From Anabaena sp. UHCC 0187 (lineage in GTDB: Bacteria > Cyanobacteriota > Cyanobacteriia > Cyanobacteriales > Nostocaceae): a DNA stretch of 64,000 nucleotides. The notes under the pieces are model-generated. The model was not told where the DNA came from. It ran no database searches and saw only the letters and a list, made by a program, of their open reading frames with translations. The first letter of the stretch is position 1. Each line of letters opens with the position of its first letter. Of the stretch, positions 51,243 to 54,976 are shown piece by piece. A program made the position numbers and the translations under genes. Location of the stretch: positions 124,001-188,000 of the forward strand of contig NZ_VILB01000005.1 of assembly GCF_009712035.1 (NCBI RefSeq), given 5' to 3'.

Positions 51243-51497
51243 TTAATATCCCATATTTAATTTTTGAGCTTGATTGGCTAATTCTGCTAAAGTTTCTCTA
51301 CGTTTAGCATCAATTATATTTTTATACTCCATCAAATCTTGATAGAATATTTTGCGAAGATTTCCCACTTTATGACAAAGAATTTCACCAGAGTCTAATA
51401 ATTGAATCAAATAAGGATGGGAAACATTGAGAATTTTAGCTGCTTCTTGAGTTGTTAATTGATCGGAAGTAGCAAGATTTTTCTTTCTGGTTTGCAT
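51243..51497 (-). CDS. Excisionase-type helix-turn-helix protein (antitoxin-like)
   Basis: An 84-residue DNA-binding protein. LTTQEAAKILNVSHPYLIQL and LLDSGEILCHKVGNLRKIFY form a winged helix of the excisionase (xis/MerR-like) family; a charged helical tail follows. In cyanobacteria such proteins are common antitoxins paired with PIN toxins. No PIN gene follows here: the next 106 bases toward 51136 hold only a 31-codon frame, so the toxin partner may have been lost. Confidence 0.8.
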   Translation of the reverse strand: MQTRKKNLATSDQLTTQEAAKILNVSHPYLIQLLDSGEILCHKVGNLRKIFYQDLMEYKNIIDAKRRETLAELANQAQKLNMGY

Positions 51498-51541
51498 TTT
51501 ATTAACCTAACCTACAAATTTTAACGTCCACCCATTAACAT

Positions 51542-51742
51542 TCATACAAATATCAAATCCTCTGGGAACTCTTCATCAAGATCAACTTCCATACCTTCAG
51601 TCAATATAGAAGCACAATGATACATATCTTCTGTAAGTGGTTCAGTAGTGCTAGGATTTTTTTTGATATCTCTAGCAAGAAAATCTAAGAACGCCTTTAC
51701 AAAATAGTGCTTTTCCATAGTTGGGGACAATATTCTATTCAT
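51542..51742 (-). CDS. PrlF-type antitoxin C-terminal fragment
   Basis: A 66-residue reading frame whose core VKAFLDFLARDIKKNPSTTE and SILTEGMEVDLDEEFPEDL matches the C-terminal part of PrlF/SohA family antitoxins (FL-FL-x-DI...P, then VEVDLD). The N-terminal AbrB-like DNA-binding domain of that family (about 45 residues) is absent, and the sequence before it contains stops, so this is probably a truncated remnant or a minimal version. No YhaV-type toxin gene is near. Together with the excisionase-type gene it marks a toxin-antitoxin graveyard. Confidence 0.6.
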   Translation of the reverse strand: MNRILSPTMEKHYFVKAFLDFLARDIKKNPSTTEPLTEDMYHCASILTEGMEVDLDEEFPEDLIFV

Positions 51743-51919: not shown

Positions 51920-53299
51920 ATGAATCAATCTGATTCCAATAATGGCAAACAAAACAAAAATGTCAGAGGAATTACAAAAATTTCTGTCAGTGGTTATAAG
52001 TCACTTTATGATGAATGCAGTATTGAAGTACGCCCGTTAACAATTCTTGCAGGTGCTAATAGTTCGGGAAAATCTAGCATCATGCAACCTTTATTGTTGA
52101 TGAAACAAACTCTAGAAGCAACTTATGATCCTGGTGCATTATTACTTAATGGACCTAATGTTAAGTTTACTTCAGCAACACAATTATTTTCTAAAATATC
52201 TGGAATCAAACCTAATAATAAGTTTACCGTTGGTATTGGTATAGAGAATGATCAAATTATTAGTAATGTATTTACAACACATAAAAAAGAAGCCATAGAA
52301 ATTGTTGAAATGATATATAAAGGAAATGAACAAGAGTTTTCCCTTTTACCAGATATGTTGCCAGGAGATGTAATGAATGTTTTACCAAAGCCATATATAG
52401 AAATATATAATGCCATTCAACATACAGAAGCATTAAAAAATAAAATGGCATGGGTTGTTGATAGAAATCGGTGTTTTTTAGAGTTTTCCTTATCAGCAAG
52501 TGAAAAATATATTATTTCTCAGAATCCATTCTTTAACTTCTTATATTCCAGTCCTTGGGAAGTTTTTGGTAATTATATCCGCCAAATAATCCATGTACCT
52601 GGATTAAGGGGAAATCCTGAACGAAATTATAAAATTACAGCTATAGGTGATGAATTTCCAGGTACATTTGAAAATTACGTTGCTAGTGTGATCAATTATT
52701 GGCAAAAAGGTAAAAATAATAAAACTATTAAAGAATTATGTGCTGCATTAGAAACACTAGGATTAACTTGTAAAGTACAAGCAAGACAAGTTAATGATAC
52801 ACAAGTAGAATTAATAGTAGGTCGTCTGCCAACACATTCTAAGTCTAAAGATGATATGGTGAATATTGCCGATGTTGGTTTTGGAGTTTCCCAAACCTTA
52901 CCTGTTTTAGTTGCTTTATTAGTAGCAAAACCAGGACAATTAGTATATATTGAACAACCAGAAATTCACCTGCACCCCCGCGCTCAAATTGCTATGGCAG
53001 AAATATTATCTAATGCAGCAAAAAGGGGTGTTAAAGTAGTTGTAGAGACTCATAGTGATAGGTTAATTTTAGCAATTCAATCTTTAGTCGCCGAAGGTAA
53101 TCTATCACCAGATTTAGTAAAACTGCACTGGTTTACACGCCAAGAAAATGGGATAACAAATGTCAATAGTGCTGATTTAGATGAAACTGGCGCTTTTGGA
53201 GATTGGCCAGAAGATTTTGGTGATTTATCTCTACAATTAGAAAACCGTTATTTAAGTGCTGCGGAAGCTCGTTTAATGCAGGGTGTACATGGTGGCTAA
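51920..53299 (+). CDS. DUF3696-type AAA/ABC ATPase
   Basis: A 459-residue RecF/SMC-like ATPase. After a 15-residue Asn/Lys-rich leader, ITKISVSGYKSLYDECSIEV leads to Walker A GANSSGKSS (45-53). The signature loop is VGFGVSQTLPVLVALLVAKP (about 330), Walker B LVYIEQPEIHLHPRAQIAM (about 352) and the H-loop VVETHSDRLILAIQ, with DLSLQLENRYLSAAEARLMQ at the end. The combined pattern fits DUF3696 family ATPases seen in defence-like gene pairs. Its last bases overlap the start of a PIN nuclease gene, so the two proteins are coupled and probably act together. Confidence 0.88.
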   Translation: MNQSDSNNGKQNKNVRGITKISVSGYKSLYDECSIEVRPLTILAGANSSGKSSIMQPLLLMKQTLEATYDPGALLLNGPNVKFTSATQLFSKISGIKPNNKFTVGIGIENDQIISNVFTTHKKEAIEIVEMIYKGNEQEFSLLPDMLPGDVMNVLPKPYIEIYNAIQHTEALKNKMAWVVDRNRCFLEFSLSASEKYIISQNPFFNFLYSSPWEVFGNYIRQIIHVPGLRGNPERNYKITAIGDEFPGTFENYVASVINYWQKGKNNKTIKELCAALETLGLTCKVQARQVNDTQVELIVGRLPTHSKSKDDMVNIADVGFGVSQTLPVLVALLVAKPGQLVYIEQPEIHLHPRAQIAMAEILSNAAKRGVKVVVETHSDRLILAIQSLVAEGNLSPDLVKLHWFTRQENGITNVNSADLDETGAFGDWPEDFGDLSLQLENRYLSAAEARLMQGVHGG

Positions 53300-53852
53300 A
53301 GTAAATCTTCAACGTTTGGTAATTGATGCTTCTGTAGCTCGTTCTGCTGGTGATAAAAATGCTACTTATCCCCAGTCGGTTCACTGTCGTGAATTTCTAT
53401 TAGCAGTTTTGAATACTTGTCATCAAATTGTGATGACACCAGCTATAAGAGCAGAATGGGATAAACATCAATCATCCTATGCCAGAAAATGGCGAATTCA
53501 AATGATATCCAGGAAAAAATGGAACTCTCCGAACATATCCATAAATGATAGTTTATGGAGTCAAGTAGAAAGTATTGCTGCCGATGTTAGTAATAAAAGA
53601 ATTGCGGAAATGACCAAAGATTTATGTTTAATAGAAGCAGCACTAGCAACAGATAAAATTGTTATATCCTTGGATGATAATACTGCTAGGAAGTTTTTTA
53701 GTGAAGCATCTATTAAAATTGATGAACTCAAAAATATTGTATGGGTAAATCCAGATAAAGTAGAAGAAGAACAACCTATTGAATGGTTAAGAAATGGAGC
53801 TAAAGTAGAGAGCGATCGCCTACTAATGAATTATTCTGACAAAAAAATATAA
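53289..53852 (+). CDS. PIN-like nuclease, partner of the DUF3696 ATPase
   Basis: A 187-residue protein with PIN-domain acidic positions: Asp13 in LQRLVIDASVARSAG, Glu56 in TPAIRAEWDKHQ, Asp111 in TKDLCLIEAALATDK and Asp129/130 in IVISLDDNTARKF. The order D-E-D-D and spacing match PIN RNases. ATG 53289 is chosen over a GTG at 53283; either overlaps the ATPase stop by 11 or 17 bases. The likely scheme is an ATPase sensor controlling a toxic RNase, as in several abortive-infection systems; this exact pair is not one I recognise by name. An HIP1-like GCGATCGC lies near its end. Confidence 0.82.
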   Translation: MVAKVNLQRLVIDASVARSAGDKNATYPQSVHCREFLLAVLNTCHQIVMTPAIRAEWDKHQSSYARKWRIQMISRKKWNSPNISINDSLWSQVESIAADVSNKRIAEMTKDLCLIEAALATDKIVISLDDNTARKFFSEASIKIDELKNIVWVNPDKVEEEQPIEWLRNGAKVESDRLLMNYSDKKI

Positions 53853-53861
53853 AATCTGTAG

Positions 53862-53901
53862 GTTGGTTTGACGTAAGGAAACCCAACATTAATCAACAAT
53901 A
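53862..53901 (+). repeat. 40-bp direct repeat, right copy
   Basis: GTTGGTTTGACGTAAGGAAA then CCCAACATTAATCAACAATA; 37 of 40 positions equal the left copy at 50691. It falls ten bases after the PIN nuclease gene, so the repeats enclose that operon and the antitoxin fragments. Confidence 0.85.
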
Positions 53902-54013
53902 AATGGTTTAAATAGGATTAAATTTAATCCAATTAAAAAAATAAACATAAATCAATGCCATAATATTTAAAGCATAATAGGGATATAGTTTATCTGCATT
54001 TAGGAGTTTGCTT

Positions 54014-54976
54014 GTGGTTGATTCAACCATACAGGACTATAGAGGTGTTTCTCATGTTCACACAATTGTCCGAGTTGATTGGCATTCAAAGTGGGAAGAA
54101 ATTGATCGCCTTAATGATGATGCGATTGACGGATTAATTTTTCTAAAACGTGGTCGAAAACCAACATCAGCTATTGTAGCTGTTCAAATAAAATGCGGAC
54201 CAGGTTATAGAAAGGATGCGAAGATTAGACCAAATTATGTTGGAGTTCAAGTAGGCAAGTCCTATATAGAAGATCACCGCCCTAGATGGAATGCCTTGCC
54301 CTTTCCAGTAGTTTTAATATATGTAGATCCTTCAGAAAATCCTAAAGAACCTGATGCTTGGTGGACAGATTTGAGATCGCCTGAATCTTATACGGATGCT
54401 AATCAAAACATTATTCTTTTACCGCAAATACAAAAATTTGGACCCCATTCTAAAGGTGACTTCTTCAAGCTTTGTGGTCCAAAAGTTAACTACGAAAATT
54501 TTTATAATAAATTAAGTTTAAAACCGAATGATCTTAAACTGGGTTCATTTAGTGAAAGCTTAAAGAGTATTGCTCGTAAATATTATAGTGATTGGGGGAA
54601 GAGTTCTGCTGCAAATCGCACTAATCCAGACTTAGGTGAAGTCATCGTCAACCGTGTTGGGTGGCGACATATTACTCGTAGAGAACGACAATCTTTAGCT
54701 ATTTCTCAATCCCTACAACTACTTCCAGTTGCATCTCGCATCATTCAGGAAGTAACTCCTGCAAAAACTTTACGCGCTTGGTCAGAAAAATTAGTGGATG
54801 GAAAGAGGGTTTTTGATGATCTTATTCGACTGGAGGCTAGAGTATACTTTCCCCATCGGCAGTCTACAGTAGTGCGTGTTGTGTTACAACGTAGACGCAC
54901 ATTCTGCGATTTAACTGGAGTAGGAGAATCTAGAATTTGGTTTCTATCAGTATTTGAGATTCATAGAACTTGGTAG
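54014..54976 (+). CDS. DUF4365-type nuclease with a possible BECR-like second domain
   Basis: A 320-residue protein. GTG 54014 is chosen because TAGGAG lies seven bases upstream (54001-54006). The N-terminal half resembles DUF4365, a PD-(D/E)XK nuclease fold: Asp39 in NDDAIDGLIFLKRG, Gln58-x-Lys60 in IVAVQIKCGPGY, then WNALPFPVVLIYVDPSE. The C-terminal ~110 residues (VNRVGWRHITRRERQSLAIS onward) resemble the barnase/EndoU/ColicinE5-RelE-like (PBECR) toxin pattern of G-W-R-H-I-T-R and a helix with SLQLL. If so it is a two-nuclease fusion. It lies 161 bases after the PIN gene, beyond the repeat, on the same strand. Confidence 0.72.
   Translation: MVDSTIQDYRGVSHVHTIVRVDWHSKWEEIDRLNDDAIDGLIFLKRGRKPTSAIVAVQIKCGPGYRKDAKIRPNYVGVQVGKSYIEDHRPRWNALPFPVVLIYVDPSENPKEPDAWWTDLRSPESYTDANQNIILLPQIQKFGPHSKGDFFKLCGPKVNYENFYNKLSLKPNDLKLGSFSESLKSIARKYYSDWGKSSAANRTNPDLGEVIVNRVGWRHITRRERQSLAISQSLQLLPVASRIIQEVTPAKTLRAWSEKLVDGKRVFDDLIRLEARVYFPHRQSTVVRVVLQRRRTFCDLTGVGESRIWFLSVFEIHRTW

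Follow-up and report, generated by a model that had tools for sequence, protein, structure and literature searches.

A conserved ATPase-PIN gene pair with a hypervariable ATPase insert and a putative immune-type role

Results

The locus and its two proteins

Three genes of a 64,000-nucleotide stretch of contig NZ_VILB01000005.1 from Anabaena sp. UHCC 0187 (the window) are the subject of this analysis (Table 1). The first two overlap, and a first-pass annotation had read them as a RecF/SMC-type ATPase and a PIN nuclease.

Table 1. Position of genes and features within the window.
Feature	Position	Strand	Remark
OLD/SMC-head-type ABC ATPase, 459 aa	51920..53299	+	first gene of pair
Walker A GANSSGKSS, residues 45-53	52052..52078	+	sequence
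ATPase hypervariable insert, residues ~96-225	52205..52594 (limits approximate)	+	candidate trigger-recognition cassette
Signature motif DVGFGVSQ, residues 318-325	52871..52894	+	sequence
Walker B, residues 341-348	52940..52963	+	sequence
H-loop ETHSD, residues 376-380	53045..53059	+	sequence
Overlap of ATPase and PIN genes, 11 bases	53289..53299	+	
PIN-fold protein, 187 aa	53289..53852	+	candidate RNase effector
D13, first acid of candidate PIN site	53325..53327	+	
E56, acid of candidate PIN site	53454..53456	+	
D111, acid of candidate PIN site	53619..53621	+	
D129, acid of candidate PIN site	53673..53675	+	
DUF4365 protein	54008..54976	+	neighbour outside unit

Both the ATPase assignment and the 11-base overlap were borne out. 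The ATPase carries Walker A, signature, Walker B and H-loop motifs on a predicted head fold, as found in OLD/SMC-type ABC ATPases, and its domain matches were to AAA_15/AAA_21, with DUF3696 narrowly below its cut-off. The top PADLOC model was NsnB (204 bits), followed by HEC-03B, PDC-M55A and AriA (E 3.4e-27), all of them models of known or candidate defence systems. The predicted fold matched many SMC/Rad50 heads, with retron PtuA-type and Septu PtuA chains among them; no AriA or OLD chain was among the 50 VIA structure matches listed, which excludes nothing.

A good predicted structure confirmed the PIN fold of the 187-aa protein, with VapC21 as the best structural match. As profile and PDB sequence searches gave no clear match, the fold is known solely via this prediction: the window protein matched no profile in Pfam (E<=0.01), PADLOC (E<=0.1) or NCBIfam (E<=0.1), and the PDB search returned two matches, both at E 0.32. 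Among 25 members of the family the PIN model was matched by two and PIN_3 by one (best E 0.012), alongside other matches of similar strength, and PADLOC matches were at E 0.005 or weaker, in line with the earlier remark that the pair was not recognised as a named system. Judged by residue conservation, the protein appears to carry the acidic site of a PIN-fold nuclease, as had been proposed: E56, D111, D122 and D129 are kept in 49/49 members and D13 in 43/49, and particular acids of this candidate site presumably bind metal. Of the 39 poribacterial PIN proteins, 20 have D at position 13 and 19 have N, so that many of these proteins may be weak or inactive.

Conservation and distribution of the unit

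The ATPase and PIN genes form a real, conserved two-gene unit. In an order-wide search of 291 genomes (ATPase threshold E<=1e-60) both genes were matched in 28, the ATPase alone in 2 and the PIN gene alone in 3, each of these last matches being truncated or stop-bearing; 260 genomes had no PIN match. The adjacency check proposed in the first-pass annotation favoured the pair, as the ATPase lay directly upstream of PIN in 28/30 loci of a first set and in 50/50 loci from six phyla in a scan of named genomes, a count that takes in three loci with the ATPase in pieces (L068, L071 and L080). In Poribacteria both genes were matched in 45 of 78 genomes (PIN in 46, ATPase in 46). Cyanobacteriota and Poribacteria each formed one side of a branch in the tree of the unit. 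No phage, plasmid or viral contig was found to carry a copy of the pair, the viral scan being pattern-limited and the share of such records uncounted.

With open frames defined as at least 420 aa for the ATPase and 170 aa for PIN, an open PIN frame accompanied a broken ATPase in three genomes (L006=L076, L017=L050, L071) and an open ATPase accompanied a broken PIN in four (L010, L022, L029, L070). An antitoxin-like order of gene loss was considered, and these broken copies give no clear pattern.

The third gene, which had been suggested as an accessory effector, is an unrelated neighbour. Relatives of its DUF4365 protein were present in 3/291 genomes, namely its own, G038 (64% identity, nearly full length) and G251 (28% identity over residues 13-164), and none was matched beside the pair or its remnants in the 79 other loci searched, which rules the gene out as a member of the unit.

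Genomic neighbourhood

The neighbours of the pair are mainly housekeeping genes, often at recurring sites, and the proposed defence island was not upheld. The gene rpsB lay beside the pair in 10/33 cyanobacterial loci, often with tsf, and PhyH in 11/11 poribacterial loci; der marks a further recurring site, and leuS lies near the pair of the window. Neither a third gene shared by all lineages beside the pair nor a small gene recurring downstream of PIN across lineages was seen.

Neighbours were scanned with PADLOC at E<=1e-10, listing the best 25 families per set, and no neighbourhood rich in known defence genes was found. For the near set, the 145 closest of 245 ORFs of 80-900 aa within 2.5 kb were taken, and 143 of these were scanned once two ATPase fragments had been dropped; for the far set, 145 random picks from 206 ORFs more than 5.5 kb away were scanned. 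PADLOC families matched numbered 64 in the near set and 41 in the far set. Among the families listed, the near set was headed by LeoA/LeoBC with 6 members, equal to the number matching Pfam Dynamin_N, and then PD-T4-6 with 3, equal to the number matching Pkinase, while PD-T4-6 headed the far set with 1 member. The near set is somewhat richer in PADLOC matches, but the models involved seem to be open to generic GTPases and kinases. PglW, which we take to be the sole model tied to BREX-like systems among the best 25 of the 64 near-set families, was matched by 2/143 proteins.

A hypervariable insert in the ATPase

Residues ~96-225 of the ATPase are hypervariable. Mean pairwise identity per 15-residue block was 0.06-0.35 across residues 91-225, as compared with 0.74-0.93 in motif blocks and 0.41-0.77 in other inner core blocks. 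Closely related alleles can differ sharply here, with core/insert identities of 0.95/0.52 for L044/L045 (both at rpsB), 0.96/0.60 for L055/L057, 0.97/0.70 for L046/L048, 0.91/0.42 for L067/L068 (79 gap columns) and 0.88/0.41 for the window and L034. Between L046 and L048 the insert carries 50 N and 16 S changes, as against 7 N and 34 S for the core (Fisher p 2.5e-9). Many pairs show no such jump: across 31 pairs with core identity >=0.9, a set in which two genomes are counted twice, insert identity averaged 0.78 (range 0.42-1.0). Over the greater part of the insert the predicted ATPase model is confident, with mean pLDDT per block of 81-94 at residues 91-190 and 49-63 at 191-210.

Exchange of segments in Poribacteria

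Insert distances track the core in Cyanobacteria overall (r 0.56-0.65). Among Poribacteria the insert is not coupled to the remainder of the unit. At 14/40 poribacterial loci the insert and the core have different nearest relatives, that of the insert being closer by more than 15 points; eight of the 40 are apparently in the multi-phylum set already (L061, L062, L064, L065, L069, L070, L071, L079). Over 38 loci the insert distance matrix correlated at r 0.06 with the N core, 0.10 with the late C core and 0.04 with the PIN C-half, which itself correlated at 0.63 with the N core and 0.54 with the late C core. The control gene PhyH (26 loci) gave r 0.63 with the late C core, 0.72 with the PIN C-half and 0.18 with the insert; in this 26-locus set the N core was weakly tied to other parts (r -0.01 to 0.25). 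Residues 236-310 partly track the insert (r 0.41). For L123/L146 and L129/L135, similarity in the flanking PhyH is close to that in the insert and it is other parts of the unit that differ, so the piece that moved may be the insert or another part.

The N-terminal half of the PIN protein seems to have been exchanged as well. Both PIN types were found with four of the five multi-member insert groups, and the insert is therefore probably not the PIN-binding face. Neither the hypervariability nor the exchange of the insert had been described in the first-pass annotation.

Discussion

Relation to known systems

The pair was compared with systems that join a related ATPase or a PIN nuclease to a partner. 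PARIS, in the available text of PMC12409363, consists of an AriA OLD-ABC ATPase sensor and an AriB Toprim tRNase effector. Our pair likewise has two genes, an ABC-type ATPase matched by the AriA model and a nuclease effector, but the effector has a PIN rather than a Toprim fold and the pair sits at housekeeping sites, and it was not assigned to PARIS. Menshen, whose NsnB gives the best PADLOC model for our ATPase, includes a DUF262 protein (PMC10952713, as far as that text was available); our conserved unit has two genes, and no DUF262 protein was present among the ten window proteins scanned, the pair included. Septu and retron PtuA-PtuB share with the pair an SMC-head-type ATPase and a small nuclease partner. 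PtuB is an HNH nuclease, and HNH is named in titles of retron entries matched by the ATPase fold, whereas the partner here has a PIN fold, which sets the pair apart from Septu. VapBC shares the PIN fold, VapC21 being the top structural match, but has a small DNA-binding antitoxin; the gene directly upstream of PIN in the 28/30 and 50/50 loci is the ATPase, and downstream no small gene recurs from lineage to lineage.

OLD-ABC ATPases paired with alternative nucleases, including PIN endoRNases, occur in BREX and BREX-related loci according to the available part of PMC12839542. These dyads are of the same kind as our pair, an ABC ATPase gene adjoining a PIN gene, but in that text they are tied to BREX, and no BREX locus was noticed beside ours. 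A literature search returned no paper that we recognised as dealing with this ATPase-PIN pair. The earlier label "undescribed" accordingly holds in that PADLOC does not match the pair, but not for the OLD-ABC/PIN pairing, which the available text of PMC12839542 already presents as a category; the new part is the combination of fixed sites and an exchanged insert.

Proposed function

We favour, at a probability of roughly 0.55, a chromosomally resident immune-type module resembling PARIS and Septu, in which the ATPase gates a PIN RNase and the insert meets a variable foreign trigger. The OLD/SMC-head-type ATPase would hold or switch the PIN-fold RNase, and the insert would recognise the trigger, most likely a phage protein. 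Recognition would change the state of the ATPase, the PIN protein would become active and RNA would be cut, which may halt growth or phage production. By analogy with AriB of PARIS and with VapC, tRNA or rRNA would be the likeliest target. Trigger, gating, RNA target and anti-phage outcome are what we infer; the hypervariable, exchanged insert lends indirect backing to an ATPase with sensing and gating roles. More tentatively, specificity of a resident innate-immunity locus may arise by recombination that shuffles the ~130-residue ATPase cassette and, independently, the PIN N-terminal half against the remainder of the unit and the genes around it. Such a cassette would be comparable to the target-recognition domains found in type I restriction enzymes, though set in an ATPase-gated RNase.

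The recurring housekeeping sites described above, the Cyanobacteriota/Poribacteria split in the tree and the failure to find a mobile-element copy would also suit a resident RNA-surveillance or stress module, in which the ATPase would respond to the state of a cellular RNP or to DNA damage and the PIN RNase would act on cellular RNA, with no part in immunity. We consider this doubtful, as 260/291 genomes of the order do without a PIN match and a hypervariable, uncoupled insert would be out of the ordinary in a protein that monitors a conserved state of the cell. That the ATPase merely neutralises a toxic PIN protein, as in a toxin-antitoxin unit, is suggested by the overlapping genes, the VapC-like fold and the patchy presence of the pair; it is nevertheless unlikely, since PIN is partnered not by a small antitoxin but by an ABC ATPase of 459 aa that carries a hypervariable insert, and in three genomes the PIN frame is open although the ATPase next to it is broken.

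Polymorphic segments at a locus that recurs in Poribacteria could also mark self/non-self or kin discrimination, with alleles recognising one another instead of phage. No third gene is common to all lineages beside the pair, however, and insert groups combine with either PIN type, which makes this reading improbable. Least credible is that the variability reflects relaxed constraint together with metagenome misassembly. Many poribacterial loci do come from metagenome bins, and amino-acid change can rise from relaxed constraint alone, but the valley in identity separates L044 from L045, whose scaffold spans 6.9 Mb, and L057 from L055, which belongs to a Planktothrix chromosome of 5.5 Mb. The contigs that bear L126 and L129 measure 6.66 and 5.85 Mb, respectively; the confidence of the ATPase model over most of the insert also speaks against it.

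Immune genes cluster in defence islands (PMC10952713, in the text available), and looking there is a common route to new ones. The immune-type module proposed here would escape such searches, as its setting is one of housekeeping genes and its variation lies instead in the putative sensor. Should the insert prove to be a trigger-recognition cassette, natural alleles of the L044/L045 type, with ~95% core identity, would provide a ready set for mapping recognition by OLD-type ATPases.

Conservation of the ATPase–PIN pair

The ATPase–PIN pair is conserved. When 291 genomes of the window's order were searched, a PIN match (E ≤ 0.001) was obtained in 31, an ATPase match (E ≤ 1e-60) in 30 and both in 28. 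Matches in the PIN-only genomes (G229, G167 and G288) were partial and stop-bearing, and in the ATPase-only genomes the ATPase was either spread over two frames (G193) or followed by a different frame (G245). The ATPase lay directly upstream of PIN in 28 of 30 fetched PIN loci, the exceptions being L008 and L030. Scanning the genome collection with a sequence pattern yielded 50 pair loci in six lineages (Cyanobacteriota, Poribacteria, Accumulibacter, Methanothrix, Armatimonadota and Omnitrophota), a count not additive with the first as the scan partly repeats the same genomes. The ATPase was directly upstream in all 50, split into pieces in L068, L071 and L080.

Within Poribacteria (78 genomes) PIN was found in 46, the ATPase in 46 and both in 45. 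Searches with a PIN profile gave matches in 1 of 250 genomes from Accumulibacter's order, in 3 of 196 from Methanothrix's phylum and in 8 of 244 sampled from the phylum to which the window belongs, all 8 being members of the window's own order. ATPase and PIN distances were correlated over 46 pairs (r 0.82, uncorrected for shared descent). In a tree of 46 of the 51 pairs, with five short or broken ones left out, Cyanobacteriota and Poribacteria each formed one side of a well-supported branch and Armatimonadota did not.

Several individual copies were unusual. Two poribacterial genomes (G485 and G516) carry two pair copies each. At L029 (G154) the ATPase is open and the PIN match has shrunk to its C-terminal 69 residues. 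The ATPase copy without PIN at L104 (G245) has a C-terminus in which a portion of a small gene nearby recurs, and the different frame downstream of it has 213 residues. At L160 (G519:C54) the ATPase frame extends upstream by about 420 residues in a natural fusion, and this extension looks like TPR repeats.

Features of the pair and its neighbours in the window
Feature	Position	Strand	Remark
HTH_17 protein and PrlF-type antitoxin-like protein	51243-51742	-	small HTH_17 protein; upstream of pair
ATPase gene	51920-53299	+	insert at residues ~96-225
PIN gene	53289-53852	+	11-base overlap with ATPase gene
DUF4365 gene	54008-54976	+	judged not part of the unit

A hypervariable insert in the ATPase

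Mean pairwise identity per 15-residue block of the ATPase was 0.74–0.93 in motif blocks and 0.41–0.77 in other inner core blocks, and fell to 0.06–0.35 across residues 91–225. Picked close pairs illustrate this: L044/L045, both at rpsB (core 0.95, insert 0.52), L055/L057 (0.96, 0.60), L046/L048 (0.97, 0.70), L067/L068 (0.91, 0.42, with 79 gap columns) and window/L034 (0.88, 0.41). At the DNA level, L044/L045 showed a valley of 47–71% identity at 300–700 nt of the ATPase gene, with 87–100% in the remaining ATPase sequence, in PIN and over the 600-base flanks. Insert identity averaged 0.78 (range 0.42–1.0) in pairs with a core of at least 0.9 (n=31) and 0.45 in those at 0.8–0.9 (n=37), a comparison that counts two genomes twice. 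No clear insert valley was seen in the window against L031–L033, in L061/L065 or in L072/L075; in L061/L065 the differing part was the start of PIN.

In L046/L048 synonymous difference was alike in insert (0.22) and core (0.18), and amino-acid-changing difference was 0.164 versus 0.011 (15-fold, Fisher p 2.5e-9). Synonymous difference was also raised in L044/L045, L055/L057, L067/L068, window/L034 and L062/L079, suggesting that divergent alleles were imported in these five pairs. In Cyanobacteria as a whole insert distances track the core (r 0.56–0.65), and we therefore claim faster change and local replacement there, not free shuffling.

Uncoupling in Poribacteria

For 14 of the 40 poribacterial loci (L122–L161) the insert's nearest relative differed from that of the core and was closer by more than 15 points. 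Over 38 of these loci, insert distances gave r 0.06 with the N-terminal core, 0.10 with the late C-terminal core, 0.04 with the PIN C-terminal half and 0.41 with ATPase residues 236–310; N-terminal core and PIN C-terminal half gave 0.63. The neighbouring PhyH protein, used as a control in 26 loci, gave r 0.63 with the late C-terminal core, 0.72 with the PIN C-terminal half, 0.18 with the insert and 0.24 with the N-terminal core. ATPase gene DNA was identical at about nt 300–600 in L123/L146 (remainder 62–96%) and 96–98% identical there in L129/L135 (remainder 72–98%). As PhyH is also 95% identical in both pairs, the rest of the unit, rather than the insert, may be the replaced piece. Among six discordant loci where PhyH could be compared with both neighbours, it sided with the core in L142, L157 and L161 and with the insert in L135, and was tied within 0.01 in L131 and L147.

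The PIN N-terminal half was a second partly uncoupled segment (r 0.04–0.28 with other parts, 38 loci), with two main types in Poribacteria. The first acidic position of the candidate PIN site was N in 19 and D in 20 of 39 proteins from L122–L161. These N13 and D13 types differed mostly in the N-terminal half, and both were found with 4 of 5 multi-member insert groups.

Chromosomal neighbourhood

The pair and the DUF4365 gene had been proposed in the first-pass annotation as a candidate defence island, a view that the pair's housekeeping surroundings do not bear out. No complete known system was seen among the first 25 PADLOC families listed near the pair. The near set was somewhat richer (143 near proteins matched 64 families, 145 far proteins 41), the leading models there being ones apparently matched by GTPases and kinases. 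No relatives were found in 50,697 phage or 72,556 plasmid records, nor in a pattern-limited scan of viral contigs, which is weak evidence.

Among 33 cyanobacterial loci from the pattern scan, rpsB lay downstream in 10, followed by tsf in 8 of those (in L039 two ORFs separate the pair from rpsB), and an Hsp70 gene lay upstream in 4. Loci at rpsB are dispersed across the cyanobacterial side of the tree, with five changes. This is compatible with an old location from which the pair was lost or moved; repeated insertion is another possibility. In Poribacteria a PhyH gene was downstream in 11 of 11 loci from the scan and a hydroxyacid dehydrogenase upstream in 10 of 11. At least one of four regional flanking genes (der, hydroxyacid dehydrogenase, PhyH and the gene after PhyH; 4.6–10.4 kb fetched) was present in 34 of the 40 later-fetched loci, 8 of which match contigs of the earlier set in length.

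Relatives of the HTH_17 and/or PrlF-type protein occur near the pair or a pair remnant in L002, L008, L033 and L034. The DUF4365 protein has a near full-length relative (64% identity) in G038, a genome without a PIN match.

Proposed mechanism

No text on this stand-alone ATPase–PIN family or on exchange of its insert was found in literature searches that covered few subscription papers. In PARIS, AriA is reported to hold AriB, and binding of a phage protein leads to its release (PMC12409363); this hold-and-release serves as a model for the ATPase and PIN. Counting against such a mechanism here are the housekeeping surroundings, the N13 residue carried by 19 of the 39 PIN proteins from Poribacteria and the broken copies, which show no ordered pattern. 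By analogy with PARIS, we infer a gating of PIN by the ATPase, a trigger, an RNA target and an anti-phage effect: the insert would meet a phage trigger, and the ATPase would then free or activate the PIN RNase. A segment whose variation follows neither the ATPase core nor PIN is unlikely to be the catalytic or the PIN-binding part, and the insert is best placed as a face meeting something variable.
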